A stretch of 64,000 nt of DNA, taken from the NCBI GenBank assembly GCA_009192285.1, contig CM018605.1, positions 1,698,530-1,762,529 of the forward strand, given 5' to 3'. Shown one piece after another: positions 323-60,189 of the stretch (within the stretch, counting starts at the first letter, position 1; each line of letters opens with the position of its first letter). Source of the stretch: Morchella semilibera. Lineage: Eukaryota; Ascomycota; Pezizomycetes; Pezizales; Morchellaceae. Below the pieces are notes generated by a model. That model saw nothing but the letters and a program-made list of their open reading frames with translations, had not been told where the DNA came from and did no database searches. The position numbers were made by a program, and so were the translations under genes.

Positions 323-1942
323 ATGAATACCATCTTAGCTCCCCGCCAAAAGGACGAACTGTGCGTTATTCTCTCTCTCGTCCCCCACTGCTTTCCCGAC
401 TCCATACCCTTCTTTATCCCCCCTGTTTGTTTCCCGCCCTCTGTTTCTGACCTTACCCCCGGAGCAGACATAAATCCCTCCTTGCATATCTTTCAGCGTC
501 TGGTCTTCCCCAATCATGCGCGGCACTGCGAGACGAGCTCGGCGTGGGGGATGAGTTCCTGGATATCGATAAAATGAAGAAATACGAGGGTCTGTTGGAG
601 AAGAAATGGACCAGTGTGGTCAGGCTACAGAAGAAGGTTGGTCACGCTTTCCCAATCCGCATCAATGCCGGCCATAGTCTTTTTTTCGCGGGAAATTCGA
701 TCCCCTGACCCTCTTCGTAGATTATGGACCTTGAGTCCCGCCTAGCATCACTCCAATCGGAGCTGGACTCTGCGACCCCCACGTCACTTACCCGTCGCAA
801 TGTCGATCCCGCAAGCTGGCTCCCACGGGCCCCAGCGCGCCATGTACTCACTGGGCACCGCAATCCGGTGACATCCGTTGCTTTCCACCCGGTCTTTTCA
901 GTTCTCGCTTCATCTTCCGAAGACTCGACCATCAAAATCTGGGACTGGGAGCTTGGAGAGCTAGAACGAACAGTCAAAGGGCATACGAAAGCCGTGCTGG
1001 ATGTAGATTTTGGTGGGCCGAAAGCGGGAGTCCTGCTGGCGAGTTGCTCGAGTGATCTTACGATAAAGTTGTGGGACCCGAATAACGAGTACAAAAATAT
1101 ACGCACTCTTACGGGCCACGACCACAGTGTGAGCGCTGTTAGATTTATTCCTAGCGCAGCAGGTGAATATCTTGTTAGCGCGAGTAGGGACAAAACATTA
1201 AGGATCTGGGAGGTCGCGACCGGATATTGTATCAAGACGATATATGGACATGCCGACTGGATCAGAGATGTAGCGCCTTCATTCGATGGCCGATGGCTTT
1301 TGTCTGCCGGAAATGATCAGGTTTGTTAATTCGGGGATCCTGAGCTATAACGTCAAGTTTACTAACACTACCACAAAGACAACACGAGTATGGGATGCTA
1401 CAACTGCAGAACACAAGGCCACGTTACTTGGCCATGAACATGTAATTGAGTGCTGTGTTTTCGCGCCACCGACCTCGTATCCCTACCTTGCTACAATTGC
1501 TGGTCTCAAAAAACCACCACCCCCTACCTCCTCCTCCGAATTCATCGCAACTGGTTCCCGTGACAAGTCAGTTCGTTTGTGGGATAGTCGAGGCACACTC
1601 TTAAAAACTCTTATCGGTCATGATAATTGGGTGAGAGCGTTAGCGTTTCATCCTGCAGGAAAGTATCTATTATCTGTCAGTGATGACAAGACAATCAGAT
1701 GCTGGGATTTAACGCAAGATGGGAGATGCGTCAAGACAGTGGATGATGCGCATGCGCATTTTATCAGTTGTCTGAGGTGGGCGCCTCCAGCAAAGGAAGC
1801 CGCCGCTGCCGCTGCCGCCAACGGGGATGGAAGGACTAATGGGGTGGCAGGCAGACGTGGAACTGAAGATAAAGCGATAGGAATGAGATGTGTCATTGCG
1901 ACGGGAAGCGTGGATATGAGTGTTAGGGTGTTTGCGTCATAA
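323..1942 (+). CDS. pac1: PAC1/NudF (LIS1) WD40 dynein regulator
   Basis: LIS1-family protein that binds cytoplasmic dynein and supports nuclear migration and spindle positioning. I read four exons: 323-360, 468-636, 721-1320 and 1379-1942. All junctions are GT-AG and the product is 456 aa, usual for the family. Exon 1 encodes [13 protein letters not shown]. After the first intron the frame resumes with [15 protein letters not shown], a LisH motif (about residues 14-45). A coiled coil follows ([18 protein letters not shown], about 50-85), then seven WD40 repeats from about residue 105 to the C-terminus (for example [44 protein letters not shown]). The last blade has a low-complexity alanine and glycine insert ([11 protein letters not shown]), common in fungal NudF. 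The start is fixed by the match to the family's N-terminus. No key element appears missing. The identity is sure; exact splice positions are my reading. Confidence 0.95.
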
Positions 1943-15454: not shown

Positions 15455-18400
15455 TCACCTCGTCCTGCTAGTATCCCTACTCCCTTGCCTACTCCCCTGC
15501 CTACTTTCTTGCCTACTCCCCTGCCTGCTCCCCTGCCTGCTCCCTCCTCCCCTCCCGACCACCTCCCACTCTGTCACGCCGCCCTCACCAATCCTCTCCA
15601 TAACCTTCTCGACACCACCGCCCTCCTGGACCTTCCTCCTGATCTCCTCGCCCGCCATATCCTCCACCACCCTCCTAATCCTCTCAATATCTGGGGTCTG
15701 TGGGCGTAGCACCTCCTTCTTGATGAAGTGTCCCAACCTATGCATCTGGCCCTCCTCATTCTCGAGATTCTTGCTTGCCAGCGACACCTCACTCCCGCGG
15801 CGGGATATCGGGCGGAGTTGGTAGGACGGCTTGTCAGCAACGTCGACATGGGGACTGAGGGGGGTTGTTGGGGTGGGTGGAAGGGTGGGTATTTTGCACT
15901 CCGGGTACTCCTGCTCGAAGCGCAGAATCACTTTGTAGAGCGTTTCGTCAAGAAAGAGGAGGCGGCGATGTTGCGCCTCCTCAAGCTCGCCATGGACAGC
16001 CTTGCGTAGCGCAGGCTGGATCCGTGATTTGATCTTGCGTGCACGATTGAGTAGTGTACGGGCCATCTCGTGGGCCCCTTCGCCGGAAAGAGCAGTATTC
16101 CCAAGGCAGACGCCGAGCGCTTTTACGACCCCTGTTCCACCGACGACGTAGTTCTCATCGTCGTCGTCATCGTCGTCTGCATCAGGATCTTCGGTGGTGG
16201 GAGTGGTAGTAGGTGAGGAGGATGGCATGTCAATAGTCCAATCATCGCAAGCACCAGCTTCCATGTTGCGGAGACAGTATGCCAGGACGCGGCGAGCAAG
16301 TGCTTTGATAACATCGCCGGAGGGATCATTAGTGTCAACCCGTACGATTGTCTTTGAAACCTTCACGGCGGCAACTAGAGCTGTGAAGAGAGCTGCACTT
16401 TCCTCAATACTGCCGCCTTCCTCGGGCAACAGGAGAGTATTTCCGGTGATGTCGAAGTGTGCCAGCATTGGGATATCGGGTAGGATCTCGCTAAGGGCGA
16501 TTGCGTGGTCGGGGGTCATGGCAGTGTTTCCGAGCTGCAGCTTTCGGAGACTGTGGAGTCTCGGGAGGTATTTCCGGAGGAGCGTGAGGGCGTCCGGTTG
16601 GGTGCTAAAGAGGAGCGGATTGTTGGAGAGATCTAGGAGGCGGAATCGCGGAAGTGCCGTAAGTGCTGGCAGAAGACTAGATAGACTTGTTGCGGAAAGA
16701 CTGCAGTTGGACAGGCTCAGCGCAATGAGCGGTGGAGTATTTGTGAGAGAGGCGGAAATCATATCGACATGATCCTATCCTTTTGTTAGCGTCCAATGTT
16801 TCAAAAAAAAAAAAAGCGAGTGAATAGTAATACTGACATGGATGCTGTTATTCGATATATCCAGTGCCTCACACACCGATCCACCCTCTGGATTACCCTT
16901 GATCCACTTTGAAACCATTGCAACTCCGTCATCCCCAATATCATTTCCCTCCAGCCCCAGTCTCTTCGTGCCTCCCTTCTCAATGCCCGCCATAATGCAT
17001 GCCAGCTGCTCCGTACTAAGCCCGCACCGACCCAGCGCAACCTCCTCCAACCCAACCCCCACCAGCCTCTCACCAAGCGCGCGCGCAAACAGCGCCGTCG
17101 TATCATTCGGCGGCAAAGTCCTCTCCTTCTTCGCCCTATGAATATGTCCCGGATGGCCCGGGTGCGATGGTGCGTGCACCGCCGGCGGCCTCGGCAGAAT
17201 GATCTGCGACAGATCCACGGCCTTCAGGCTACGCGACATGTGGATGAACAGACTGATATGGCGCCACCCATCCCTGCCAATCTTCGGGTTGTCCTTAAAG
17301 CTCAAGCGCTCGATAACGCCCCTTCCAAGCCCTTCCTCCTTTTTAGCGATTCCGCCGGCGAGGGTAAGCGGCCGGACCACCGCAAGCCCGCACAGAACCA
17401 CTCGCACCATCTCGTCCGTAAGCGCGCACCCCTCCATTAGTAGATTCTTCACCGGTACGAGCGCCAGGAAATCAGACAAAGCCACGGCATCCGCTAGTAT
17501 GAATTGGTGCCCGCTCAAGTCCAGTATTTGAAGCGTCGGACCTACTAGCTGCTCAACCACGCGTTGCAGCATTACTGTTTCTCGAAGCTGGCACACTTGC
17601 CGGTAGATACGGACGGGGTCAGTGGTGGGAGCCACGTGGATGAGTTTCCGGGGCTCCGACTCCAATAGCGGCGTCTCTGCTGCCGCCGCGCGCCGTTCCT
17701 TCTTTCGCTCCTTCCGCGCCGCCCGCTCCCGTTCCTCCGATCCCTCTGCATCTGTCCGCTCAGGCCTTTCCGTCCTCTCAGGCCTTTCCGTCCTCTCTGA
17801 CCGTTCAGTCTTCTCTGCCCGCTCAGTCCTTTCAGTCTTGTCCGCCCGCTCAGTCCTTTCAGTCTTGTCCGCCCGGTCTGCCTTCTCTGCCCTGTCCGTC
17901 TTCTCCGCCTTCTCCGCCTTCTCCGCCTTCTCCGCCTTCTCCGCCCGCTCCGCCTTGCGCCGTTTCTTCTCGCTCCGTGCCTTATCCTTATCCTTATCCT
18001 CAATGATTGGCGCCACCTCCACATCCACACAGAACGCCACCTTCCTCAGTTTCCCGCCATCCAGCTCCATGATCTTGCATCTCTCCCTCGTCGGGTCGCG
18101 ATTCAGCACCACGCGCTCGCTCGCAAAGATGCCCGAGCGGTTGCTACGGCCGGGCGTCGACAGCTTTCGCAACGTGCTAATCAAGAAGCCCGGTGGCGGC
18201 TGCCCCGATGGCGATGTCGACGGCTCGGCGGCGGAGGAAGCGCTTGACGAGAACTTGCTGGAGATGCTGCTGAGCCATGAGCCACGGCGGGTTGGGGTTG
18301 GGGGTGGCATTGTGGTGGGAGCGGCGGCGGCGGTTGTAGTGGTGAGGCTAGGTGAGGCTGTGGTGTGCGGCTGCGTGGGGTGGTGGTGGTGGAGGTGGAG

Positions 18401-18478
18401 GTGCGTGTCGAGGGTGGAGGGGAGGGAGATGGTGGAGGGGCTGGGATCTGAGCGACTGCGTGTGCGTGGTTCTGTCAT
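15455..18478 (-). CDS. Large leucine-rich-repeat protein
   Basis: Two exons, 16838-18478 and 15455-16774, with a GTCAGT...TAG intron of 63 bp, give 986 aa. The order is: a Ser/Thr/His-rich N-terminus (HLHLHHHH); then SWLSSISSKF and a basic stretch; then a 60-residue low-complexity block of EKAEKAEK and TERTER units (about 190-250). LRRs of ribonuclease-inhibitor type follow in two sets (LQILDLSGHQFILADAVALS, ERLSFKDNPKIG, KRLGLEGNDIGDDG, EALDISNNSIH in exon 1; ALSLSNCSLS, RLLDLSNNPLL, RKLQLGNTAMT, HFDITGNTLLL in exon 2). An acidic run (DADDDDDDDE) comes next, and SRQGSRQGSR repeats end the protein. It resembles fungal proteins annotated as MHP1-like or cell-wall-biogenesis LRR proteins, but I am not certain. 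A role as a scaffold is inference. Splice phase is continuous across DISNNSIH and DHVDMIS. Confidence 0.85.
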
Positions 18479-25021: not shown

Positions 25022-28332
<3,311 letters not shown>

Positions 28333-34124: not shown

Positions 34125-35759
34125 CTTAACAAACGTGCGAGGGGAGAGTGATGCTAAAGAGGATGAATGACGGTAAAGATCGAGTCAACGATTCTTTACT
34201 GTTTTCTGGATGGAATGGAGAGAGAGGGGATGGATGAGAGAGAAGGAGAAAAGGATGGAAAGAGTTGAGGAGGACGATGGGTTTTTGAACGGGGTCGGTG
34301 GAGAAGTCTTGGCACTTTCTGTTCTCACTGCTTGAGGACGAGGGAAAAAAAATGTGAAACGCCGCTCACAGAGGCTGGAGTGATCCCTGTTTTTACCTTA
34401 ATGGGGCATAGCTGGGACTGGCTTTTCCCGTTCCGCCCCGATGTTTGTGGAAGCAATTTTTTAGGGCGGCATCACCGCACAGGGATCCAAGTGGCAGTCG
34501 GACAAGGAATTCTCATCAACTTTCATACTGGTAACATTTCTCTAGCATTTCCTCTACTGCGGGAAGAAGCCGCCGCTTTGAAAAGCAGGAGGAAGGAGAT
34601 GCCATCCAGAGCAACATGGAGGTCTGGTATTACTTAATATCAGACTCCAATATTTTCACAAGCCTAGAGAAAAGAATTAGACGTCAGCTCTTCCAGAAAG
34701 TCCTCCTTGCTGGCCGGTTTTCTCCAGTTAAAGAAAATTAAAATACTGTAACATTATTACTACAATCGAATCTACCGGTATGGTGACCGGAACAACTGGC
34801 GCTGCATGTGAAGTCCTTTTGACAATATGAAAATAAGTATTGGTTGGAATTGCCTTCTACGTATGTACCCAGGAGAGCTCTTACGGGTGAGACTTTCGGA
34901 GTCTCGGTATGAAGGTTTACGATAGGGGAGGTTTCGATATTGGCTCATACTGATGATATTCGTCGTTCACCAGGGGAACCACATCAGGGCTCGTTTTTAG
35001 TTTGTTTTTCCTTCAAGACAACCTTCTCCCTCTCTTCCTTGCATGTTAACATCCTAGAATTTTTTTTTTTTTTTTTTTTTCCTTTTCCTTATCTTCCATT
35101 TCCTTTCTTGACGATACTGTTCAACCATCATACAAAGGCTTCTGATCATACAAGTCTCGAATATGCCACACCCTAAGATTCGGTGGCCCGCCGCCACAGT
35201 AAAGGCCCACTAGAATAAGCAAAACGTCGCGTGCAGGACCCTGCCCCTCGAAAGGATATGTGCCTAGGATTCGAAAGGGAAGAGCTGGAGTTATTTGGTC
35301 CAATCGGACAGACTCGTAGAGCCGCGACACCGCGGCTACCCAAAGATAATTTTCTCGGCGGTGTGAGAAAGAGAGAAAGATTCATACCACTATCTACATA
35401 GTAGTAACGATCAATAAGTTCATTAAAAATAACCAAAGCAAAAACCATAACTTTATCAGCCCTTCGGTTAAGGAGAAAGTGTGTATGTGTTCGCTCTGCT
35501 TAGCAGTAGGTAAGGACACCATGATGTTGTGCCTTATCGCCCTGTCGCTGGATCAACAAGGGTGGAACCTCCTACCTGCATACGGCAAGGTGACGGGCAG
35601 TCAATTTTTCAGCCACATGCGTAACCGCAGTAACGCGTCCGCCATCACATTTTGTTTTCATCCCCCTCCCCCCGCCGAACCCATACAACAACAATAATAA
35701 CGACTTAGGTTCCGAATGTTTCATGTGACGATTTCTTTTTGACCACCGATAACCGCGAA
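34125..35759. promoter_or_regulatory. Divergent promoter region, ADP/ATP carrier / 1133-aa protein
   Basis: About 1.6 kb between head-to-head starts. GA-rich DNA at 34200-34290 is the CT-rich promoter side of the carrier gene. A T-run of about 22 lies at 35060-35081. No gene is seen between. Confidence 0.5.
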
Positions 35760-38700
35760 ATGACCGAAGCTTTGCAAAAATTCAGAGGTAGTCTTTCAAC
35801 CACTACTTACAATCCAACAAAGGCATGGACAACTGCTCGTTGCCATCGGCTTCTACGACCGCTCTCCTCGAAGTTACAAGCTCTTAGGAACATTGTGAAG
35901 TCGAATCCTTCCGTCACCACCGAAAATGCAGCTCGTCCGAGGCCAAAACGCGATCCCACAGATCCCGATGCTTTGTTCGTTGAAACAATTGAAAAGGCAG
36001 CGGGAACAGCTGGGATGGGGGTGAGGCGGGCGCGGGCCAGGCCACAGAGGACATATTCTGGAGCCGGCGGTAATGGGTCAAGAAATCACAGGAATCACGC
36101 ACCAACAGCCCCTATTGATGTGCCATCAATAAACATCGACGATTCTTATCTTTCAATATGGGGAGACTCAATCAGTAACCCGGCAGAGTCTGAATCCCAA
36201 TCGCATCCAAAGCGGTCACATCAGCCAAAGGCTCAGGATCCAAATGATCCACGTTTTCTCCTCCACTCACTCAAGTCCCATGTCCATCCTTCCATATTCT
36301 GCATCTACCTCGGGATTTACGCTGCACTTGAGTCTGTACTTCTCTTCACCAAACCCACGCCCTCCAAATCCAAGGTTCTCCCCCTTCGCACGCTCGCTGC
36401 CCGCAAAATCGCGCATTGTATTCTCGCTACATCTGGCGAGGTTGACTCTGATGACATTTGGTACGATGCCGCCGCAGAGCTGGGATCTGGCGGCGAATAC
36501 CTCCGTGATGTAGTTCGCTGGCATGCGATTGAACTCGTGAGAGAGTGTATTACGGATGGTTTGATGAAGGGTCGACAAGGAAACAATGGTGGTATAGGGA
36601 TGGCCGGCGTAATAATAGGAATTTGCCGAAGCTATGGGGCTGAGCAGGAGGCCCAGTCACTCCTTCAGACTTTGTTTGACCTTTCTCCTGTTATCTCTTC
36701 CTCCGATCACCCCCCAATTCTTACTCTTCAGAAGCTTTGGCACTCGGACCAAAACATTATCTACAGGTTTCTTGCACAGAATTTCCCAACGACACGATCA
36801 AATCCGTCTTGGCTTGGAAGTACCGATATCAGGAAATTGCTCCAACTTGATCTTGATGAAAACCCAGGTCTCGAAGTTCTTACAACGCGGGCTCTTGAGG
36901 CAGCGTTTGGTCTCTTTGGAGAAGAGCATATTAATGCCCTTTCCGCTCGGCGTCAGAAAGCCTCAAAACGTAAAGGTGCCCTGCGTGCTTCTAAAGCTAA
37001 TAGTGAAGAAGCTGTGAAGAAGGCAGCTGTTATGCCATACAATGTTGCTACAAAGGCAGAAAACACAATTCTTAAAGCTACTAGAGAACTTGTTCCCCTC
37101 TCCTTATACAACCCTAGATCAGAAGCTGTAGGTATAATTAAACAGCTTGTACAAGGTTTCCTTGTCCAAGATCCTGGGGTTAAAAGCAGTACTGAGGATG
37201 TATGGGGCGGGAATTGGCCCGTTGCAGCTAAGGTTGTAATTCTCCTTCAAGGCCTTGGTAGTAACGCTGGAGATGATAGCATGATTATGGATGAGCTTGC
37301 TAGATGTCTTGAAGATATCTGTAGCTCTGGTGGAAAACATGCCTTAAGGTCATTAGCAGGCTTTATAGCAGAGTGCTACACACCTCTCTATAATGGTGCT
37401 TCTAGAGCGGAGGAAGATCCAATCCAACAACTCTCGAATCGTCTCTTGAGCATTGCCGCCGTAAACAGGGCGTCTTCGTCTTTCCATGGACAAGATGGGT
37501 TTGGGTCTTCAGGAATCGCCCCGGAAACACCTCAGACTGCTTTAGGAATGAAAATGGTAACATTTACTCCAGGCAAGCCTGAGCTTGCTCCGCATCAAGA
37601 GCGATTTGAAACAAAGCGTTATTTGATTGCGCAATTGGCCCTTCAGATTGCTGTTACATTCTCGGTCTCAGAGGGAGTCAAATCAAATACTTCGTGGATT
37701 GATTGGCTAAGAAAGTTTGAACACAAGGTTATCGGCCTTAAAATTCAGACACCAGGGAGAGTTAAGAATTTCCTACAGCCTCTAAATATGAAGGATGAAC
37801 TTGAGAAGGGTACAAGGGCCAATCAAAAGAAGGGTATCGAAAAGAAAATGGAGAAACGAAAAGGATGGCGATACGAGGAGGGATTGGACTTGTGGGTTGC
37901 TATTGGCGCTACTCCTGGCAAGAAAGAGAGGAGAAGTGGATTGTTTATGGAAAGCGTGGAGATTGAGATGCCAGACGATGATTACGAGTGGAGAGATGAA
38001 TATGAAGTTACCTCCATCTCTAGTGACGTCGAAGAGGCTTCTGTTAGTGAAGAAGATGAACTGGAAGCCTCTGTGGTTTCGTCTGAGGATGAAAAGGATG
38101 AAGATAGGGGGGTTGATGATCGACCCGCCACCCCATCATCGTCATCATCGTTCATAGAAGATGACTCTGACGAAGACGCCGATTATTACTCCAATCTTCG
38201 CGTTACACCCCCTCGTACAGTTCGGCGTTCTCCCCGTGGTACCGCAAGGATCAAGAAGAGCCTTGCTTATTTCTCTATCATCAGGTCGTCTTCCCCTATA
38301 TTTGTAAGAACACCATTACAGACCCAGTCAAGCGCATTAAAAAGGCAGTACAACTTCAGTGTTGTTGTTAGCTCTCCTTCCTTGAAAAACTCCTCGGTAG
38401 TTTCTTCAACTATAAAGAGGCTTGGTGTCGACAAGGACGACTGGGAAGATGAGGATCAAGATTTGGATTCAGATGGAGTGGTGATGGAGGACTACTCGTC
38501 ACCTGTTCTCAGGAGAATGGAGAGAAGGCAGGAGTATACCGAAGACGACGATAAGGTGGAAGCTGGGTCAGAGCAGGAGGAGGGGGAGGAGGAGGAGGAG
38601 GAGGAGGAAGTTGTTGGTGATATATCGTTTGGTGATGCTCAATTCGGTTCATCTTCACCATACTCATCTCCGAATCCCCTTCCTACACCACCATCTAAGC

Positions 38701-39161
38701 GGAAACGTGAGGCTGCGATACCATTGCCCAAACTTATGGATTACAATTCGCTCGACGAAGAAGAATTCGAGGGACTCGAAGAACAAGAATTTAGAGGATC
38801 TAGTGAAGAACAGGAATTCGGGGAGCCCGAAGGGGACAGAGAATACCAAGAACGGGACATGGAAGATGAGATGTCAGAGGAGGATCATCCTTCTGCCTCA
38901 AACCTCCCCTCGTCGCCCCCGCCGCCAACCCCACCACCTCACCCCCGTCGTCCGAAACGCAACTCTCTTGGCGCACTTAAATCAATGGTTAACATCAATG
39001 ATCCTGTTACCTCACCAAACGTCAGCCTAGAATCAAGAGATCTGAACGAAATTCTAGAAAGGTCGTCCAAGAAGAGTCGCCTAAAGAGAAAGAAGCTCCG
39101 AGTGAAAAAGAGGAGAAAAGTGGATGACTTTGATATGAGTGATGATGAGTTGGGACGGTAA
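35760..39161 (+). CDS. Unrecognised 1133-aa protein with acidic and basic C-terminal region
   Basis: Single long exon. The open frame begins upstream at a TTG (35739), but the first ATG is 35760 (MTEALQKFRG), which I take as the start. The N-terminal region contains WTTARCHRLLRPLSSKLQAL, which looks conserved, and a mostly helical body (about 150-720; for example HPSIFCIYLGIYAALESVLL, ARKIAHCILATSGEVDSDDI). From about residue 740 it becomes acidic and Ser-rich (EEASVSEEDELEAS, EEGEEEEEEEEVVGD) with short SPIF and SSPY motifs. The end is a strongly basic cluster (KKSRLKRKKLRVKKRRK, about 1105-1121) suited to a nuclear localisation signal. This suggests a chromatin, nucleolar or kinetochore-type protein; no family was recognised and no function is assigned. 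Confidence 0.88.
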   Translation: MTEALQKFRGSLSTTTYNPTKAWTTARCHRLLRPLSSKLQALRNIVKSNPSVTTENAARPRPKRDPTDPDALFVETIEKAAGTAGMGVRRARARPQRTYSGAGGNGSRNHRNHAPTAPIDVPSINIDDSYLSIWGDSISNPAESESQSHPKRSHQPKAQDPNDPRFLLHSLKSHVHPSIFCIYLGIYAALESVLLFTKPTPSKSKVLPLRTLAARKIAHCILATSGEVDSDDIWYDAAAELGSGGEYLRDVVRWHAIELVRECITDGLMKGRQGNNGGIGMAGVIIGICRSYGAEQEAQSLLQTLFDLSPVISSSDHPPILTLQKLWHSDQNIIYRFLAQNFPTTRSNPSWLGSTDIRKLLQLDLDENPGLEVLTTRALEAAFGLFGEEHINALSARRQKASKRKGALRASKANSEEAVKKAAVMPYNVATKAENTILKATRELVPLSLYNPRSEAVGIIKQLVQGFLVQDPGVKSSTEDVWGGNWPVAAKVVILLQGLGSNAGDDSMIMDELARCLEDICSSGGKHALRSLAGFIAECYTPLYNGASRAEEDPIQQLSNRLLSIAAVNRASSSFHGQDGFGSSGIAPETPQTALGMKMVTFTPGKPELAPHQERFETKRYLIAQLALQIAVTFSVSEGVKSNTSWIDWLRKFEHKVIGLKIQTPGRVKNFLQPLNMKDELEKGTRANQKKGIEKKMEKRKGWRYEEGLDLWVAIGATPGKKERRSGLFMESVEIEMPDDDYEWRDEYEVTSISSDVEEASVSEEDELEASVVSSEDEKDEDRGVDDRPATPSSSSSFIEDDSDEDADYYSNLRVTPPRTVRRSPRGTARIKKSLAYFSIIRSSSPIFVRTPLQTQSSALKRQYNFSVVVSSPSLKNSSVVSSTIKRLGVDKDDWEDEDQDLDSDGVVMEDYSSPVLRRMERRQEYTEDDDKVEAGSEQEEGEEEEEEEEVVGDISFGDAQFGSSSPYSSPNPLPTPPSKRKREAAIPLPKLMDYNSLDEEEFEGLEEQEFRGSSEEQEFGEPEGDREYQERDMEDEMSEEDHPSASNLPSSPPPPTPPPHPRRPKRNSLGALKSMVNINDPVTSPNVSLESRDLNEILERSSKKSRLKRKKLRVKKRRKVDDFDMSDDELGR

Positions 39162-48957: not shown

Positions 48958-49377
48958 ATGCTCAAATTTATCTTCTTCCTCTTCATGCTTGGCATGCTTC
49001 CATTGGCTTTTTGCGCCCCAGGCCCTTCACCTGTCGAAATAATTTGCACAAGCATGCTCAGCGACGAGCTTCTCGCCCGTATTGACAGTGCCATCGAGAT
49101 CGTCAGAGAATTCGAAAGCCCCGACGATTGCAGACAGACAACCCCCACAACCCCACCAAATGATTCAGAATGCACGGCTCTTGTGGAGAGCGATGGAATT
49201 GGGATCCTGATGTGTGGGCCTACAGGCGTTAGGCGGGGCTGCGGCGTGATCGCAAATGCGCTGGAAAAGGTCGTCCAGAAATGCCCCAAGAAGGAGCCCA
49301 AGAAGCCCGGAAACGATGGCGGCGAATACATTATCCACATAGATGGTGGAAATATCAATTTCAAGTTAACATGGTAG
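48958..49377 (+). CDS. Secreted cysteine protein, 139 aa (family A, copy 1)
   Basis: Not a named family. Single exon. Signal peptide MLKFIFFLFMLGMLPLAFCA with likely cleavage just after. The mature domain has six cysteines. The last four have spacing C-X13-C-X8-C-X13-C (ECTALVESDGIGILMCG, RRGC, QKC), and a Gly-rich tail follows (NDGGEYIIHIDGGNINFKL). The same spacing and a similar Gly-rich tail occur in the protein at 59791-60189, which I take as a divergent paralogue. A C-G pair after the second of the four and an alanine-rich helix between the last two are common to both. The architecture is that of small secreted fungal effector-like or wall-associated proteins; function unknown. Confidence 0.8.
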   Translation: MLKFIFFLFMLGMLPLAFCAPGPSPVEIICTSMLSDELLARIDSAIEIVREFESPDDCRQTTPTTPPNDSECTALVESDGIGILMCGPTGVRRGCGVIANALEKVVQKCPKKEPKKPGNDGGEYIIHIDGGNINFKLTW

Positions 49378-49892
49378 AGGGACTTATTTTACATTTATCC
49401 ATGCACGGCAGTTATGCTTTGGGGGGAGCGCATTAATCTTTTTTCTTTCTTTGTTTATTTTCTTGTATTCTATTTTTTTTTTATGTTTTTTGTTTATTTT
49501 TGTTTTATGTTTTTTGCCGATATTAATAGTGATGAAGATGTCAAGCTGGGAATAATGTATGTTTAATTACTTGTAATTCATCAATGATCCTCATGAAGTT
49601 CTAACTGTGCGAATCTATCATTGTGAAATTTGCCCGGATCTGTCAAGACTACTTACAAGAATTCCTTCTCCCACGCTCTCTTAGGCATCTTCCCCCCTCA
49701 ACACGATATTCTCATGGCTATTCATAACCTGATCCATCACAATAGTATTATCGAGATTGATATTGCTACTGCTTCATACGTTTTCATACCAACGAACCTA
49801 ACTATCTGTATCCATACATTATATTTATTCCCGAACTTCTATAATCATGATCGGTGGTTCGGCTCGGCCATATGATAAATTTGGGGTGAAAA
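49378..49892. other. Downstream region of the secreted-protein gene
   Basis: T-rich 3' region (49435-49520), then AT-rich DNA. No gene. Confidence 0.45.
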
Positions 49893-50110
49893 ATGTACCC
49901 AGGGTGTTGGAAAGTGATGCACATTTTGACTAGACAACACCCAAATACTTTATCACAATACAATAAAATCGTACAGAACCTCTCTATATATACTTGGTGA
50001 AGAGTATCTGCACACTCATGTTTACCTTGAAATAGCCTGGTGTGGAAATCGATTCCCATGTGGCTATGAAACCACCGAATGTGCATCACTTTCCGACACC
50101 CTAGGTACAT
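49893..50110. mobile_element. MITE with 33-bp terminal inverted repeats, 218 bp
   Basis: The left end starts ATGTACCCAGGGTGTTGG and the right end, on the other strand, ATGTACCTAGGGTGTCGG. The match continues through AAAGTGATGCACATT, 33 bp with two or three mismatches. There is no coding capacity inside. Flanks are AAA on both sides; a target duplication is not certain. The general form (GTGTYGGAAAGTGATGCAC) suggests a DNA transposon derivative, family unassigned. Confidence 0.75.
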
Positions 50111-50125
50111 AAAGGCTTTATATAT

Positions 50126-50246
50126 GTACTCGTCTACCAGGGCAAGAACCAGAAAATGCGAAAGGATTATTTGTATGGCAGAACGTACAAATAATCCTTG
50201 ACTTTGTCACTCGCATTTTCTGGTTCTTATGCTGGTAGACGAGTAC
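50126..50246. mobile_element. Foldback element, 121 bp
   Basis: Arms begin GTACTCGTCTACCAG on both strands, continue through AAGAACCAGAAAATGCGA, and meet at the inner GGATTATTTGTA / TACAAATAATCC pair. An 11-bp insertion sits in the right arm. The whole element is a near-perfect hairpin without coding capacity. Confidence 0.75.
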
Positions 50247-50250
50247 TAGT

Positions 50251-50297
50251 CAATAGGACTTTGGTTGCTACAGCCATTACCTACCCCCGTCCTATTG
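50251..50297. repeat. Short inverted repeat CAATAGGAC / GTCCTATTG
   Basis: Nine-bp arms separated by 29 bp, lying directly between two larger foldback elements. Confidence 0.5.
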
Positions 50298-50312
50298 ATA
50301 AAAATTTGGCAA

Positions 50313-50420
50313 GTACCGGGGATTCACCTAAAGTCTGAAGAATCTGATAAGACAGATACCCCTGCTTTACAGCAAAATCGGCTGATCGAGTTCTTCAGAC
50401 TTATGCTGAACACCCGGTAC
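50313..50420. mobile_element. Foldback element, ~108 bp
   Basis: The left arm starts GTACCGGGGATTCACC and the right arm, on the other strand, GTACCGGGTGTTCAGC. Both continue into AAGTCTGAAGAA. Like the 121-bp element beside it, it begins and ends with GTAC. Confidence 0.65.
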
Positions 50421-51325
50421 ATCATGTAGTTTATAGCTTGGCTAGCTTTTGTACCACCCATCTATCCCTGTACTGTAGTCGCATAGGTGCTGTCTCGGGA
50501 TGGCTAGATCTTGAGGTACCTACAGTCAGCAGCACATTTACCCGTTGCTTTTTCCCGTCCCAGCCCGGAGAAAGAACCCACGGAGCCTTTGATACGTCGG
50601 CGGCGCTTTTCCGATGTTTCCACCGGAAATACCCGGCGCCGATGTTTTTCTCTAGATCGCTGTCCGAAATTTTGAGCTGCGGCACGGGGAAGTGCTATCT
50701 GTGGCGTTCTAGGGAAGATCTGAGTCTTATATACGGGTCGAAGCGGTGTCTCATCTACGAGTGATAGTTCATGCACGAATTAGTTGCGCGCCTAAAGATA
50801 AGATAAAGTGCAGGGTTATGTCCCGCTGGCGAAACTCACGCATTAGTGTGTCCTATGGAGGAAATGATTGACCGAAATAAAGCAGAAACGTGCGGAGTTT
50901 GAATTTTAAGTATTCTAAAGACTAATGATGCGGCGAACGTGATCTGTAGCAAAACAGGAGTCTCATGACCATGAGAGAGATTTCTCCAGTGTCTGGTGCG
51001 TCCGGCACATTATTTCGCTCATTTCTTAGCCTTGGCAGTTTTCTAATCAATAGTCATGCACAAAAGCGGGAAGTTTTATTTCTAATGTGCTAAGAAAGGC
51101 TCACTGACACTCGCTCCGTAGGGCCCGGAAGGACCATTATATCTGTTGCTGGATATTTTTTTTAATTTAATAACACAACACATGCACATCTTTTTCGTCT
51201 CGTAATAAAAGACTCTCCAGTTTTAAAACTACACTGCCGCTAAAGAATGGCCCATCCTATCCAGCAATCCGGATTTAAATCAGAATAAAAAAAAAAGAAA
51301 AGGGTGAACTTAAATTTGTTTCTAC
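50421..51325. other. Gene-free stretch downstream of 6PGDH
   Basis: AT-rich, no recognised gene. Overlapping short frames on both strands near 50.43-50.78 kb lack support. The last 100 bp form the 3' region of the 6PGDH gene. Confidence 0.45.
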
Positions 51326-53543
51326 TTAAGCAAGATATGTTGATGCAGAAACGTTCCCTCCTCTTCCGGTCCAGTTGATGTGAATGTCCTTTCCTTCTAC
51401 CAAAGAGGCAGAAGCACACTCGGGCTTGACACGGAAAGTGTGGGCACCTGGAAGAAGGTTAGAGCCTAACAAAACGGCAAAAATATCTCTCTCATGGAAA
51501 AAAGAACATACCAAAGTAATCACGCTGGGCCTGCAACAGGTTGGCGGGCAGGTTCTTGGTCCTGTAGCCGTCGTAGAAGGAGAGAGCGGTTGAGAAGCAA
51601 GGTGTAGGGATACCGAATTCGATACCCTTGGCAATGGCTCTCCGCCATCCGGGTTGCGCCTTGTGGATAGCGGCTTTGAAGAAGTCATCGAACAACAAAT
51701 TCTCGAGGTCGGGCTTGGCACGGTAGGCCTTGGTGATGTCCGCAAGGAAGACAGAGCGAATGATGCACCCGCCACGCCACATGAGGGCGATGGCAGGGTT
51801 GTTCAACTTCCAACCGTACTCTTTGGCAGCCTAACGCATTGAGGTGAGTGTTTTGTAGTGGAGAATAGTAGAAGGGCAGCAAGATAATATACCTCACGGA
51901 TAAGCATGAATCCCTGAGCGTAGGAGATGATCTTGCTAGCGTACAGAGCCTACAAAGTTCAAATTAGCCTAAATTCTGTGTGAATTATTGGATTCCACTA
52001 ACCTGTTCAAGGTCGGCAATGGCGGCCTCCCTGTCACCAGTGAAAGGAGGGATTTCAGGTCCCTCAAGGACCTCTGAGGCCCTAGTGCGCTCGGCCTTGA
52101 TCGAGGAAAGGCATCTAGCAAAGACGGACTCTCCGATCAAGGTAACGGGCATACCAAGGTCAAGAGCGTTGATAGCGGTCCACTTTCCGGTACCCTTCTG
52201 ACCAGCACTGTCGAGGATCTTCTCAACGAGCGGGGTGCCATCCTCGGGGTCGTTGTACCTCAGAATGTCGCGGGTGATCTCGATGAGGAAAGAGTCCAAA
52301 ACACCAGTGTTCCACTTGGCGAAAACATCACCAATCTCAGAGCTGGTCATCCCAAGACCGCGCTTCATGATATCGTAGGCCTATTTTAGGGGAGTTAGGG
52401 ATGTTTCATATTCCATCTCAGGATCAATTGCGCCTACCTCGCAGATCAACTGCATGTCACCGTACTCAATACCGTTGTGAACCATCTTGACGAAATGACC
52501 AGAACCCTCATCACCAACCCACTCACAGCAGGCCTCACCATCAGACTTGGCAGAAATGGCCTGCAAGATATCCTTGATGTATGGCCAAGCCTCCTCATTA
52601 CCACCAGGCATGATGGAAGGACCATATCTGGCACCCTCCTCACCACCAGAAACACCGGCACCGACGAAGCGGATCTGCTTCTCGGCAAGGTACCTGGTGC
52701 GGCGGTTGGAGTCGGGGAAATGGGAGTTGCCTCCATCAATAATGATATCGCCGGAGGTCAGGAATGGGAGAAGAGAGGCAATGAAGTCGTCAACAGCAGG
52801 ACCAGCCTTGACGAGCAACATGATCTTACGGGGAGTCTTCAACTTCTCACAAAATTCCTGGATGGAGTGGGCTCCAACAATGCTCTTCCCTATAATCTGT
52901 TTAGAAGCTATGCAAACGTAGCCACTGCAATTCCTAATACATACCCTTGGCCTCATTCTCCAAGAAGTGGTCGACCTTAGCAACAGTTCTATTGAAGGCA
53001 ACGACAGTGAATTCTATTCTCCTAATTAGCGGCAGCACACAATATTTAATTTGCTTCTTAGGACATACTGTTGTCCGCAATGTTCAAGATCAAGTTCTGA
53101 CCCATAACGGCCAGACCAATGAGACCGAAATCTATTCCACCATCATTAGTATCCCAGTTTCCTTAAGCTCTCGTTCGCTTCCTCGGAGACTTTTTCCGCC
53201 TAAAACTAGAAGAGGAAAAAGCAAAAATAATCCCCGAGGAAGAAATATAGTCTTTACTAGAATTGAATTGGATAGTACTAACCACCACTAGGTGTTGGAT
53301 GCGCAAACCCGCCAGTAATAGCGGCCAGTCGCGCACTAAAGTCAGCGAAAAGATCTTCAACATTAAAGTCTGAGTCGAAACTTAAATTTCTCCCCCGAAG
53401 ATAGCATAAAAATTAAACAATGGAGCTTTTATTGCAAGTTCAGAGGGTTTGGTATGGGCAAAGTGGGGTTATGTTGCTAGAGCGGGGATCAGAAGTCTAT
53501 GACGAAACGGTATTACTTACACTGCCTTCGTTTCTTCAGCCAT
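51326..53543 (-). CDS. gnd1: 6-phosphogluconate dehydrogenase, with a 5-nt microexon
   Basis: Decarboxylating dehydrogenase of the oxidative pentose phosphate pathway: 6-phosphogluconate + NADP to ribulose 5-phosphate + CO2 + NADPH; cytosolic. Nine exons: 53521-53543, 53283-53287, 53069-53131, 52945-53013, 52438-52889, 52003-52380, 51893-51949, 51512-51830 and 51326-51447. They sum to 1488 nt, 495 aa, the family length. The Rossmann motif is DFGLIGLAVMGQNL (about 10-23). Others are VGAGVSGGEEGARYGPS, the catalytic segment GSGHFVKMVHNGIEYGDMQ, GQKGTGKWT, WRGGCIIRS and C-terminal NWTGRGGNVSASTY. Exon 1 ends MAEETKA plus GT. Only a 5-nt exon TGGTG (between ACCTAG and GTTAGT) brings this into frame with the D of DFGLIG. 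A 2-nt exon TG at the same acceptor is a weaker alternative. Divergent from MPC1. Confidence 0.93.
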
Positions 53544-54524
53544 GGTTGAGTATTTAAAATTGTATGGAAGAAGATAAAATGATTTTTTTATCTGAGGTCT
53601 AAGGTTGCGGAGGAATGCAGGTAGAATGGTGATTGACAGGATGAGGAGGGAAGGGAGGGGAAAGAAAGAAGAGAAGAGGAGGGAGGAGGGGCTAGTTATG
53701 GAGGGGCAGGACGAGAGATGCCTTATGGCCACTAGCCCTTGGGGTAGGGCGGAACATGGCGGATAAAAACGAGTTAACTGGGCGTCATGTTTTCTATTCG
53801 TTTCGGTACCGTCTCGTCTCCTTGCTCGCTGCATTTCCGTCCGTTGATACTTAGTATGTAATGTAATCAAATTCTATGTATACATGGGATGCATTCCGTA
53901 GCGGGTGGGTGCGTGGGTGGCCCTGTTGCCTGTAACTTATGTAAAAGAGCATTTGTAAATCCATCTTGCAGTTGTTTGTCAGTTGTATGTCGTCTGAGTG
54001 GATAAGGCTTAGTGGGGTTTAGTGCAGTAGAAAATATCGAGCTGGGTGTTGCCGCCAAGCCAGATATGCATGTCCTTTTTTCCCCACTCTGAGACCATAC
54101 GAGTAAAAGAAAAATTGAAAATCTCAAAGACGAAACAGGCTTCCGAGACTGTGAAGCAAAAGGAAGGAGAAGTACTCACCAGCGACAATCTATTGTTGCA
54201 TATAAATACATTTTATGTAGGTAGAATGTCATTGTTCTGTTTACGAGTTCTTGGGTCAAGGACCAGGGTCTTTCTATCATGTAATCTTCGTACCTGGGTC
54301 CCACAGTATGGTACAGCTACCGACCGAACCAAAAGCCAAAGATTTGCTGGCTCACAAGAGCAATTCCCCTCCACGAAACCTCTTCCCTTCCATCAACTCC
54401 AACTGCTCTATCCAACAAAAATCCGCCCCTTCTTCCTCCCTCTACAGCCCCGTGCCTGAGATTCGAATCCTAGTAACAAAACAACCTCACCAAACCAACT
54501 CATAGCCCCCCGCAAGCAGCATCC
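53544..54524. promoter_or_regulatory. Divergent promoter region, 6PGDH / MPC1
   Basis: A 981-bp gap between head-to-head starts at 53543 and 54525. CT-rich on the 6PGDH strand just upstream of its start (53636-53700) and CT/CA-rich before MPC1 (54360-54520). No gene between. Confidence 0.5.
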
Positions 54525-55302
54525 ATGGCTTCAATGATATCCGCCCTCAACGCCAAAATTCGGAGCAATCCGACGATGAGCTACTTCTGCTCCACCCGTG
54601 CGTCATCGGCCTATTTCCCTCAATGTTCACAACAGGAGTAATTTGCTCATTGACTGGCTATTTAGACTTCTGGGGACCGGCTTCCAACTTCGGAATTCCA
54701 GTCGCAGCGGTGTTGGACATTACCCGAAAGGACCCTGAGGTGTATGTGAATTTTCCACTCCGTTCGGTCTGCTTTGCTGCAAGAGAAATGCTGACAACAA
54801 TGTTTAATATAGTATCTCGGGGAAGATGACTACTGCGCTCCTCGTCTACTCAGCAGTCTTCATGAGATACTCGTACGCCTACCCAAACTTCTCCCGTACT
54901 CACTTAGCTAGCTCGCCACGATACTAATATGTTGCACTATGTAGAATGGCTGTTACTCCGAAGAACTATCTCCTCTTCGGTATGCCGCGATATTTACCGC
55001 TATCCCAATATCCTTGTCTTTATCTCCGCCGTTATGTCCGCTAACTACGACAATAGGATGCCACTTTGTCAATGAGCTTGCACAGATGGCGCAGAGCTAC
55101 CGCTATATTACCTACTGGAAGTATGTCTCAGTTACCCTCTCCTCTTGTATTGTCGCGCCCTCCTTCATTATGGGCTAACAAAGATCACAGCTACGGAGGC
55201 CGTGAGGCAGCGCTCGCGCAGAGGGCAAAGGAAGCGGAAAAAACCGTCGTCGAGAAGGCGAAGGAGCTCGTCCCAGAAGCCATTAAGGGTTCCTCCAAGT
55301 AG
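54525..55302 (+). CDS. mpc1: Mitochondrial pyruvate carrier subunit 1
   Basis: Small inner-membrane protein that forms a heterodimer with MPC2 or MPC3 to import pyruvate. Six exons: 54525-54597, 54666-54741, 54813-54872, 54945-54979, 55057-55120 and 55191-55302, giving 139 aa. The family core is continuous across the junctions: STHFWGPASNFGIPVAAVLD, ISGKMTTALLVYSAVFMRYS, VTPKNYLLFGCHFVNELAQM and QSYRYITYW. The C-terminal extension is charged and helical (AKEAEKTVVEKAKELVPEA), as in many fungal MPC1 proteins. Exon 4 is only 35 nt. The ATG at 54525 is in good context (ATCCATGG); an in-frame ATG three codons later (54534) is an alternative. No defect is seen. Confidence 0.92.
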
Positions 55303-58300
55303 AAGAAAACTCTGTATTTATATCGTATATAAAGAAGAGCCCGGGTTCCTACTTAGATATCATACAAATAAATGTTGGGAATTGGGATCTAGTTTTTTTT
55401 CTTTGTCGAGAGTTACGTGTGCCGATGGTAGAATTTAGGGCGAGCGACGGGGTAGATGGGGTATTCGTGATTTTGTGACCTACATGTATGTAGTCTGGAC
55501 TGGCCGAGTGAGGTTACATGAACCACTTAAAATCCCAACGCCCAAGGAAGAATTTGAAATGACGTATCGGCTGAATAAATATTCATATCTCCTCCTGGGT
55601 AGGACGCAGGTGTAAGCTACACGTACCCTCCATCCGGGTCGATCTTATCGTGGGGGGGGGGGGGGGCGATATCCTTATGCAAACATCTTACGACCTCCCG
55701 CATCTTGGTGGATACACGTGCATGTGCGATCACACCATAATTCATGCATAGCACAACCTGTCTCCCGTTCACTTAAAAGTTTGACAGCTCTTTCCTCCAC
55801 CCATACATAACACCGACTTAGGACCCTTAGTATGCGTGATGTGATGGCCCACGGGCAAGTAACCGCCCAGCCATTCCTCCCATCATACCTATTCTCAGAG
55901 ATAAACCAACATGATGACCTTTCAGCACTTCCTCGCAAGGGTTCAGGAACGCGTTCGTATTCAGAGAGGTTCTTTTGTCTCATCCATGCCCTGTGCTCTG
56001 GAACCAACTGCTGATCCGTGAGCAGGCAACGCGCAAACACCGCGGAGAAGCTCCGAAGACGCACAGAACACCCCGCAATGATTCCTAGAGATCCTATCAA
56101 ATCCAACCAATACATCCAGAAACTTCTCGGGGCTCCTAGGATGTCATATAGGTGCTTCTTATGCAATCACTAGATATCACTCGGACTCTGTTTTTCTCTG
56201 TTAAATGCTGCGAACTTTTGAGGGGCCACCTCCGCCACCATGACAACCATGAACCAGTTCTCAGGAGTACAGACGGCGTAATTCTGGGGGAATCCCCTCC
56301 AGGTGCACGGTGCACTATGCGGCCCCCTTAAATGCTGGCAGCTCCACCAGCAAAAGAGGTAGTTAGTGGGATCGGGACGAAAGCAACACAACCTGGTCCC
56401 CCTTCATCAATGGCGAAAATCAGCCTAGGGGGGTTTCTAGGTCTGGGTGATTATTGACGAGAGCTTCCATAAGTGGCGCCCCCTCTAGAGATGCTTATCC
56501 CCATCTCAGATTCAAGCCAACTATCCTGCAGCTGACGATAAATGCTAACGGAAATTAGTGCAGGAAGTTCTATCTAGACCTGTTTACGAGATAAAAAGTG
56601 GCCCAGATTTAAAATAAACAAAGTTTTGTCTTGAAATACACAGAAACTCAAGAATCTACGAAAAACCAAATCTGCTGTCACCTGTACCGAGGAAGCACGA
56701 ACCGCCCACTGAAGGTCAGACTACACCCCTCTCCGTACCCAGCCAGCGAAAAAACCTAGTACGAAACTAGTACGAAATTATGGTTCTTCCCTGCTTCCCC
56801 TTCTGCGTTACAGACCCCGCCGCGATAACTAAAGTTAAGCCTAGATATATCCGCATGGATAACTAGTTAACGAGTTGGGAGGAGGAGTTCTATTCAAACA
56901 GCGTAAAAGCCTTAAGCTCTAAGAGATTTTGAGCGATGTACCGATATACCGCTTCCCTAACGGTGAAGCCCAGCAGAAAGTCCGAATAAAATTAGTAGAT
57001 TAACAACAACAAAAAAAAAAATAGCAGGTCTGAAAGCAATGTTTCCCGGCTACGGATACCATACTTAGGCAAACCCAGGAGTGCTACTCCAACCGACACA
57101 CGGGCCGGGGGCCAGGAACCAGGAACCAGGAACCAGGAAATCCGTAACGCTGCCCCAGGCAGCAACCCTGCGTAGCCTTTCACATGGTCTGGACTGATGC
57201 CCTTTGAGATGCCCTTTGAGATAAGTATATAGCTGCGGGGAGTTGGGTTGGAGCTTTGGAACTGCTAGCTAGGATATGGCCTGAGCCGGCCCCTATCTTA
57301 TCCAAGCCCCCGTGTATCGGATCCTCCACAGTATACCCATTGCATATTATTACCATTCTCCATCATACTCCACACCCCACTCACACGTACCCCCCGCGCG
57401 CTTCGTGCCTGGGGTAGCCCGAACTCAGAAATTCTGGAGAAATATCCAACAATAAAGACTAATCACGGACCCGAAACCATCACCCTAAACCCCACCAAAC
57501 GCAAACCTCGCCCTCCCTGAGCCAAGGACGGAGGCTAGTAACCCTATTTCGCGGCGTTATTCCAAACAAAGCCCCCCGAAACCTTCCGTGTGCAGCACCG
57601 GCTGGAGGATCGAGGGTGAAAACCCGTCCAGTAGAGGAAACGGTTTTATAAAGGTTTGCTACCAGTGGCCCGGGCTAGAGCAAATTATGTCGCCCCTGTC
57701 GCTCGCAGGCTTCTATCACCAGCTCATGCTCTAACGCCTCCTAGGAATTCCAGCAGCCCCGTCTGACCTCGGCAGACTGAGCCAGGTTATCCAGTTTGAA
57801 GAATGAGACAGAAGAACTAGAGTACCTATAAGAACTGTAATCCAGGACCAGGGCCTCGGGGGGTTTTGGTCGGACTGGGTTGGGCTGGACTGGACTGGGC
57901 GAGGTAGACGGGCTGGAGTGAGCTGGAGTGAACTGGTACACAACAAAGCCTGAGATTACCACCGATACTAAACCCAAAGTATCTTGCTTTGTAGAGTAGT
58001 CGACTGTAGGTACATATAACTTAACAGTGCCGGCAGCCCTGTCGGTCGGTCAAGTCCGGTGCAGCAGTCCTGGACTGGACTAGACAAAACTCAAACTGGA
58101 GCGGGGTGCACACAAAACTGTGCATGTATAGACACCACATCGAGGTAGAATCCTAGATAGGGACAGTAAGTGATAGCGTAGAAGAAACCGTCTGCCGTGC
58201 CGGAGGGTAGTAGGTACCAACACCAATGTACTTGTTATTCATAGCAGGTGAGGGCTAAATACTCTAGGTACCTACGTGTAGTGAACCCTGTGCCAGATAC

Positions 58301-59790
58301 TTTGTGTCTTATACACTCAACTCTACTGATCGCCTATTGATATATACAGATACACATGACCAAACCCATATATTAAGAACATCCAGCGCCATTCGCTTGA
58401 TCAAATGACATCCCAAGATGCACCCTGGGGCCACACATCCATCTACGTATGGTAATGTCTCCAGCCCATCCTAACCCACCCCGACACCCTCCCTCCACAA
58501 AAAAACGCCCAATGCCAAGAGTGTACGAGAGTTATTATTATTATTACGCCCAATGCCCAAAGCGCCAAGACCAAAATATCCCATACATACGATTCGACCC
58601 ATCCCAACCCCCGAGTGACACTCCATGATTCCAGCCTCACCTCGCACCGAGACACCACACTCGGTACATCCACCAACCACACCGCAGCAAGCTGCATATG
58701 TCGGTGTCGCCGCTCTGCTCGCCGCCTGCCTCGTGAGAAACTATCGGACGAACCCGGATTTTTGCCCACTCTCTCTACATACTGCTCTACTCAGCTCAGC
58801 AGATATATATACATACACCCCCCCCCTCTCCCGCCCCTACATGTAGCCACTTTGTATGTATATAGTTAGTTTTGTACTGGTTATTTGATCCAACTTGCCA
58901 CTCCTGGATATCCGATCCCGTTCGATCTTTTTCATCGACAAGGCGCCCAGAGCTGTGTGTAGATATATTTAAGGATTTCAATCATGGCTGGTGATGGATT
59001 CATAATCGGTCAATTTTCTGGTTTGTTGTGTGTGATACAGTGGAATAATGAATTAATAAGTGAGTGAGTGAGATAGGGTACCTACTATAGGTAGTAGGTA
59101 CATACGCTACCCTACGGCATTCGCCTTTCTGCTCTAGTTCCAGCCGAGTACTAAGTATGTAGCTAAAGTAATCCCAAATCTATATTAAGCCTGACCTACC
59201 TACCCCCCCAGCTGGTTATGTACCTACACGTGACTTCAAACTTCAGCACTTCAATTTCCCTTTCATTGGGAGTGGAAACAAAGGAGCATAAAGGAAACGG
59301 GAAACTGCTTCATTTCTAGAGATCCAACTCCTGCGTATAAATATCCCGTAAATGTCCGTTTCACCCTAGTTTCGCCCGGTTGAGCCGCCAACGAGATGCG
59401 GCGTTCTGATTCGCCCTGGAAATGCAGAGCGCATGCGCGCACACACCCTCGTATTATTTTATTTTTTTGCGCCGCTCAGTGATTGCGTACTAGACGTGCC
59501 CTGTTACTGCATGTAGAAAAAAAAAAGGGAAAGAGAATGAGACAGAAGATTTACAGTGGAGGTATTCTATTGAACTGTACCGATACAGGGTGCGCGCACA
59601 TTCGATGCATGACGAGCGCCTAGGATGGAGACTGGCCTCATAAGACCGACAAGGCCCACCTAGCTAGCTTCCTCAATCCCTCTCGAGACAAGTTTGCACA
59701 ATCACTTAATCGCCTCAGAAGACATACCTCCATAAAAACAACTTCGGCTGCTAACTCAACCCCCCCCCCCCTTCCAACAATCACCAAACA
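55303..59790. other. Large gene-poor region
   Basis: 4.5 kb without a gene I can support. It holds TACATGTA at 55481 and 58838, a G15 run at 55652-55666, four tandem CCAGGAA units near 57112-57138, GGACT-rich repeats at 57875-57900 and 58068-58085, TATAAATA at 59335, and C-rich DNA just before the next start. A minus-strand open stretch at 55675-56391 is broken by two adjacent stops and is not called as a gene. Confidence 0.5.
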
Positions 59791-60189
59791 ATGTTCAAAT
59801 TCACACCCCTCCTCCTTCTGCTCCTCACACTCCTCATCACACTCGCACACGCATCACCACTCGTTCCCCGGGCTCTCACTTGCGAAACCAGCGATGGCTC
59901 CCCCACTCAAGAGAGCATCAAACTCTGCTACGAAGGTCTCCTCAGTTCCTCTAACGCGGGGAAAATATGCGCCAGGGTCGTTTTGGGCGGCGGCACATCC
60001 AGATGTGATACTGTCGCATCGTCTTCAGGCGCAATCATAACATATTGCGGTTTGTGGGATAACTCGGCAAGTTGCCAGGACCTGGCATACGCAGCAATGG
60101 ATATCCTGAACAGATGCAGAAACCCCGCTGGTAAGGCAGGTGGGACCACGACCTTGCCCAACGGAGGCATTGTTAAGGTGCATAAATAG
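59791..60189 (+). CDS. Secreted cysteine protein, 132 aa (family A, copy 2)
   Basis: Single exon. The signal peptide is MFKFTPLLLLLLTLLITLAH (cleavage near HASPL, about residue 22), followed by LVPR-A, which could be a propeptide site. The mature part has seven cysteines. The last four are spaced C-X13-C-X8-C-X13-C (RCDTVASSSGAIITYCG, SASC, NRC), the same as in the protein at 48958-49377. Both then end in a Gly-rich tail (here AGGTTTLPNGGIVKVHK). Sequence identity is low outside cysteines, the G after the second of the four, and the alanine-rich helix, so the two would be old duplicates. Function unknown; secreted effector-like or wall-associated by architecture. Confidence 0.82.
   Translation: MFKFTPLLLLLLTLLITLAHASPLVPRALTCETSDGSPTQESIKLCYEGLLSSSNAGKICARVVLGGGTSRCDTVASSSGAIITYCGLWDNSASCQDLAYAAMDILNRCRNPAGKAGGTTTLPNGGIVKVHK

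Follow-up and report, generated by a model that had tools for sequence, protein, structure and literature searches.

Two predicted secreted proteins with a shared cysteine spacing are distant paralogues in a sequence-divergent family of at least 23 members

Two genes in a 64,000-nucleotide stretch of DNA (the window, contig C3:1698530-1762529) encode small proteins, here called A and B, whose last four cysteines are separated by 13, 8 and 13 residues. The question raised by this locus is whether such a sparse likeness marks a common origin and, if so, what kind of protein it marks. The genome searched comprises 56,756,124 bases in 23 contigs and, from its size, its gene style and the earlier note on this DNA, appears to be that of a filamentous fungus. 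In the following, C1 to C6 denote the six family cysteines, and contig labels are preceded by the word contig. Both open reading frames (ORFs) were found where the earlier note had placed them, with the following features.

48958..49377, + strand: gene A, an intact single-ORF gene of 139 aa with a hydrophobic N-terminus; a divergent member without CET..GSP
48958..49017, + strand: predicted signal peptide of A (~20 aa), with a 10-residue hydropathy peak of 2.77; hydrophobicity only
49039..49374, + strand: six-cysteine domain of A, residues 28-139, with C30, C58, C72, C86, C95 and C109
49171..49284, + strand: C72-x13-C86-x8-C95-x13-C109 segment of A, corresponding to family C3 to C6
59791..60189, + strand: gene B, an intact single-ORF gene of 132 aa with a hydrophobic N-terminus; a typical member (CETSDGSP)
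59791..59853, + strand: predicted signal peptide of B (~21 aa), with a hydropathy peak of 3.42; hydrophobicity only
59875..60186, + strand: domain of B, residues 29-132, with C31, C60, C72, C86, C95 and C109, and an extra C46 in helix 1
60004..60117, + strand: C72-x13-C86-x8-C95-x13-C109 segment of B, corresponding to family C3 to C6

The cysteines of A are residues 19, 30, 58, 72, 86, 95 and 109, with C19 lying within the hydrophobic N-terminus, and those of B are residues 31, 46, 60, 72, 86, 95 and 109. The last four therefore coincide (gaps 13/8/13), each protein has a Gly directly after C86 and about five Gly in its tail, and both N-termini are hydrophobic enough, by the peaks listed above, for the predicted signal peptides, all as the earlier note had described. 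Its alanine-rich helix between the last two cysteines stood in part: alanine is present, but the stretch is only mildly rich in it (3 of 13 residues in B, 2 of 13 in A).

Two inverted-repeat pairs, with arms of 33 and 36 nt that are 92-94% complementary, lie just downstream of gene A (window 49893-50110 and 50126-50246), and the first of them resembles a small MITE-type element.

The chance level of the spacing was estimated from the 96 ATG ORFs of at least 80 aa in the window, 32 of which encode at least four cysteines. Among these 96, no triple of consecutive cysteine gaps other than 13/8/13 recurs in a second ORF. When triples with a gap sum of at least 20 were counted, a shared last triple arose in 5 of 2000 composition shuffles (~0.003) and a triple shared at any position in 49 (~0.025). 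By itself the pattern appears unlikely but not decisive; it is only suggestive, and it is the profile test described below that settles the relation between A and B.

Direct BLASTP comparison of A with B gave an E value of 0.11 over 18 residues, and the two proteins are 19% identical in the final alignment of 23 members. Searches of their own genome at E <= 10 returned eight further places with B as the query and three with A. One protein, found on contigs C12 and C13, bridges the pair, being matched by the B query at E 0.005 and by the A query at E 0.015. The family was extended by searches with five paralogues and a sixth of the contig C11/C16 type, and two later single-member searches of the genome gave no new place. 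Eight single-member searches with other members recovered A twice (E 0.0095 and E 0.022) and B twice (E 0.016 and E 4.0e-7); the contig C12 member as query listed A and not B.

The resulting family has 24 loci, of which 23 are distinct after the contig C13 copy is dropped. Since the search scores the best candidates and ignores introns, this is a lower bound of at least 23 members. Weak matches in long frames without the cysteine frame (contig C12:337k/contig C13:337k and contig C22) and a weak match at contig C21:370k, also without it, were left out, as was L030, a copy with a broken frame that lies ~1 kb away from the contig C1:6217k member. Matches at contig C1:345891, contig C4:1940493, contig C20:3374214 and contig C19:3739968, for which the DNA was not retrieved, were left out of the count.

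For the decisive test, domains were trimmed manually to start two residues before C1, and a profile was built from the 21 other paralogues, with A and B both excluded (E values for 2001 sequences). This profile scored A at 37.9 bits (E 1.7e-10) and B at 51.5 bits (E 9.4e-15). None of 1000 shuffles with the cysteines held fixed reached the score of A, and none of 1000 that of B (maxima 16.0 and 17.1 bits); full shuffles, 1000 for each, had maxima of 8.6 and 13.4 bits. When the 591 stop-to-stop ORFs of at least 50 aa in the window were compared with the profile, B ranked first (50.0 bits), A second (36.0 bits) and the third ORF scored 7.9 bits. In a leave-one-out analysis the 23 members scored 36.1-103.3 bits, and their cysteine-fixed shuffles (200 each) at most 24.6 bits. 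At the level of sequence, these scores show A and B to be distant paralogues in one family. The earlier note had suspected a fast-evolving family that ordinary searches could split, and this was supported: the direct E value is poor, pairwise links are sparse and the 253 pairs have a median identity of 25% (up to 66%, between two neighbours on contig C19), yet the profile retrieves both proteins at the E values given above.

A hydrophobic N-terminus is encoded in the same ORF as the domain in 20 of the 23 distinct members, as judged by hydropathy only. The members at contig C1:7136k, contig C16:183k and contig C11:115k have no in-frame hydrophobic start, perhaps owing to an intron, and that at contig C11:98k, which was scored positive, resembles a membrane anchor more closely on visual inspection. 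A start of the form M(F/L)KF, with a nearly direct passage from signal to domain, is common to A, B and the members at contig C3:1503k and contig C1:3648k; many other members have a linker of tens of residues. The members are mostly scattered in the genome, except for a cluster on contig C19. In a tree of the family, the end branches have a median length of 1.3 changes per column, and good support is confined to 3 of the 20 inner branches. It pairs A with the contig C18 member (91/87), possibly as a long-branch join, and no history was drawn from it.

Several observations on the loci themselves were made along the way. The contig C19 cluster (contig C19:5387061-5392061) is a local tandem array of four members in about 5 kb, all on one strand and all with an extra cysteine pair. 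L030, downstream of the contig C1:6217k member, has its N- and C-terminal parts in different frames and looks like a decayed tandem duplicate. The weak match at contig C1:345891-346166 (E 7.9e-5) lies in an open frame of 494 residues and is possibly a domain of a larger protein. Contigs C12 (1,576,628 bases) and C13 (1,575,470 bases) were identical over the member and the 1400 bases compared (L015, L016), and the other weak match that they carry lies at nearly the same place, 337 kb, in each; the two may be copies of one chromosome, whether as a duplicate, a haplotype or an assembly artefact.

Alignment of the members gave a consensus of roughly CET..GSP...DV...C.Q....GS.C..L...G.A.I.iCG.......C..lA.........C.......VGG....g. 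The CET..GSP...DV motif at C1 is frequent and not defining: its CET..GSP part is present in B and lost in A, which keeps the rest of the consensus in outline. The distance from C3 to C4 is 13 in 18 of the 22 members that have both cysteines, and that from C4 to C5 is 8 in 16 of 20. The earlier note had named homologues without the kept spacing as evidence against the family, and the spacing proved to be mostly kept: C3-x13-C4-x8-C5-x13-C6 is exact in 13 of the 23 members, A and B included. Eight of these 13 have no inner cysteine, and five (four on contig C19 and one on contig C2) have one or two extra in the C4-C5 gap. Because members were found by similarity and not by spacing, the spacing serves as a semi-independent check, and on this alignment the 13/8/13 pattern is a family signature.

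The cysteines are also lost and gained in pairs. C1 is present in all 23 rows of the alignment, and C6 in all rows once a displacement of one or two columns is tolerated (19 in register, 1 and 3 shifted). Contig C23:1888k, the only row without C2, is without C5 as well; C5 is missing from just one other row (contig C1:3648k), which keeps C2 and has gained a cysteine just before C3; and the only row without C3 (contig C11:98k) also lacks C4. An extra cysteine beside C2 and another three residues before C5 always occur together, in 6 of the 23 rows; the contig C19 cluster accounts for four of these, and one of the four carries yet another, odd cysteine. Three related rows share two additional cysteines between C3 and C4. 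This co-variation suggests disulfides C2-C5 and C3-C4, with C1-C6 following by elimination; as the losses are single cases and the rows are related, the pairing is a prediction. Predicted pairs are 58-95, 72-86 and 30-109 in A, and 60-95, 72-86 and 31-109 in B, with C46 of B free. Optional fourth bridges would be C2'-C5' or would lie inside the hairpin.

No credible match to Pfam, NCBIfam or PDB sequences was obtained with the 23 members. The Pfam Kp4 model (PF09044) matched none of the 23 and no place in the genome at E <= 10, PF01657 (DUF26) matched none of the 23, and a viral model library gave nothing meaningful for A. Matches dismissed as noise were a frog skin propeptide signal for A (Pfam, E 2.1), YedD, DUF6506 and DUF5122 (Pfam, one member each, E 0.03-0.06), entries of the bacterial/archaeal NCBIfam library (one or two members each, E 0.04-0.09), all of them unrelated, and scorpion toxin, VIP receptor 2 and cytochrome c oxidase 6B1 in a PDB profile search (E 0.12-0.7). 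A match of B to hepatocyte growth factor (E 0.0036) was absent from both profile searches and was attributed to chance. A spacing seen by eye in a 19%-identical pair thus identifies a genuine family, with no fewer than 23 members, that pairwise search splits and that lies outside Pfam and NCBIfam. The family alignment has no conserved stretch of 7-10 columns. Six family motif strings were absent from the literature searched, and no description of the sequence family was found in the passages of the killer-toxin-fold literature covered, supplements lying outside both searches; it is not claimed here as unpublished.

Structures of A and B were predicted from single sequences and not from the 23-row alignment. 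The model of A (pLDDT 57.0, low-confidence) has the order b-a-bb-a-bb, that is, five strands in b-(a-b2)2 order, and the model of B (pLDDT 51.9, also low-confidence) has the same order minus strand 1. As to the shared fold proposed as a check in the earlier note, the order of elements is common from helix 1 on, but both models are of low confidence and do not show a common fold with matching disulfides. The best five of 210 chains compared with the model of A were the KP4 toxin, two plant DUF26 proteins, the Y3 lectin and ginkbilobin-2, all with weak scores, and this ranking was not repeated for B. PMC10462633, which is cited below, is presumably the paper of Derbyshire and Raffaele (2023). 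In the available part of that source, b-(a-b2)2 is the element order of KP4 and ginkbilobin-2 (PMC10462633). Judging from these models, the family is probably an unlisted branch of the widespread Gnk2/KP4-like class.

The Gnk2/KP4-like orphan candidate effectors, as they appear in the accessible sections of PMC10462633, resemble the present family in being small, secreted, fungal, sequence-divergent and predicted to have the b-(a-b2)2 order, whereas membership here rests on weak models. The family differs from KP4 and KP4L proteins (U. maydis KP4, Fusarium KP4L, and Zt-KP4-1, PDB 8ACX) in having no PF09044 match. It shares the C-x8-C step with plant DUF26/ginkbilobin-2 (PF01657) and with the fungal lectins Y3 and LDL. 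In DUF26, however, the motif is C-8X-C-2X-C, while here the step, present in the 16 of 20 members noted above, is not followed by C-2X-C, the third motif cysteine being absent in the alignment of 23. The disulfide from strand 1 to helix 2, C36-C113 in PDLP5, would have its counterpart in the putative C1-C6 bridge.

The main alternative accepts the family but gives it a KP6-like sandwich fold (as in Zt-KP6-1, Ecp28, AvrLm6-like proteins and BAS4) and a host-directed effector function. According to the portion of PMC9632046 available, KP6-like folds are highly abundant and occur widely across fungal effectors, and KP6-like effectors (Zt-KP6-1, Ecp28, AvrLm6-like) resemble the present family in being sequence-diverse and secreted, with two helices and 2-4 disulfides; in addition, a low-confidence order of strands and helices cannot cleanly part two related alpha/beta sandwiches. 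Against this, chains of the KP4/Gnk2 class take ranks one to five for A, and its five strands follow the b-(a-b2)2 order reported for KP4/ginkbilobin-2 in the part of PMC10462633 considered. No KP6 chain was among the structural matches listed for A or B, an absence that is inconclusive and shows nothing either way. We regard the KP6-like alternative as rather unlikely. Still less probable is that the family, genuine, secreted and paralogous, has its own fold with no relation to killer toxins and that the structural matches stem from poor models; the weak fold scores and the want of any credible sequence link even with 23 members agree with such a fold, but the five best matches of A all belong to one structural class among 210 chains. 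That A and B are unrelated, with 13/8/13 a coincidence or a convergence of disulfide-rich secreted proteins, is very improbable and was rejected by the profile test, since the low identity, the direct E value, the loss of CET..GSP from A and the shared triples in 5 of 2000 shuffles are set against 37.9 bits for A on a profile built without A and B (1000 cysteine-fixed shuffles, at most 16.0) and against separate pairwise matches of both proteins to the same contig C12/C13 protein.

The preferred reading, which we consider moderately probable, is that A and B are distant paralogues of a secreted six-cysteine family of at least 23 members, with three disulfides and a sandwich of the Gnk2/KP4 class, that binds extracellular surface targets as antagonists or effectors. 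The signal peptide would export each protein, and the three disulfides would lock a small alpha/beta sandwich of b-(a-b2)2 order: C1-C6 would join strand 1 to helix 2 at its end, C2-C5 would link the end of helix 1 with the start of helix 2, and C3-C4 would shut the hairpin of strands 2 and 3. The cysteine frame and a few core residues would be kept while the surface is free to vary, some branches gaining a fourth disulfide. Outside the cell, the proteins would most likely bind a surface target, either a glycan or a membrane protein, carried by competing microbes or by a host.

Such a role against competitors or in a host is suggested by analogy. In the text available of PMC9506348, KP4-like proteins figure as growth inhibitors, and the KP4L genes of Fusarium are said to respond to a fungal competitor and to contribute to seedling rot; Gnk2 is a mannose-binding antifungal lectin according to the accessible part of PMC6368629. 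By the same analogy, competitors would be the likelier first target and a host the less likely one. A bolder idea, which we hold to be quite doubtful, is that the family, ancient and lacking a Pfam model, has a common origin with the antifungal DUF26/ginkbilobin-2 domain of plants and with the KP4 toxins. The C-x8-C step and the bridge linking strand 1 with helix 2 would then be remnants of a shared frame, and the family would have radiated within one genome into 20-odd proteins by swapping whole disulfides in and out. If this were true, 'mix and match' of cysteine pairs would let one scaffold present many different surfaces.

Neither a family so much larger than two nor a fold class that is probably known was foreseen in the earlier note. 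What is new here is a sequence-divergent family that is predicted to be secreted and probably belongs to a known structural class; should the KP4/Gnk2 class be confirmed, this would be one more case of the known phenomenon of effectors that are unrelated in sequence and similar in structure, and the surprise would be moderate. With the 23-row alignment it becomes possible to improve the structure model, to map the disulfides and to search the proteomes of other fungi, and so to test directly whether killer-toxin/lectin-like ancestors gave rise to part of the fungal 'orphan' secretome.

Some further observations concern the assembly and the rest of the window. The sole 5.8S rRNA match in the assembly (contig C19:2699587-2699758, L087) scored 39.5 bits against a cut-off of 42, and the rDNA array seems to be missing. 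ORFs of 435, 567 and 1140 aa at window 15455-18478 (- strand) and 35739-39161 (+ strand) have no Pfam match at E <= 0.001. WD40 repeats at window 724-1942 are spread over two overlapping + strand ORFs in different frames, which points to a gene for a WD40 repeat protein that is interrupted by an intron or by a frame break. On the - strand at window 25022-28277, separate ORFs encode a POLQ-like helical domain and pieces of a DEAD helicase; they appear to be parts of an intron-containing helicase gene of the DNA polymerase theta/HELQ type.
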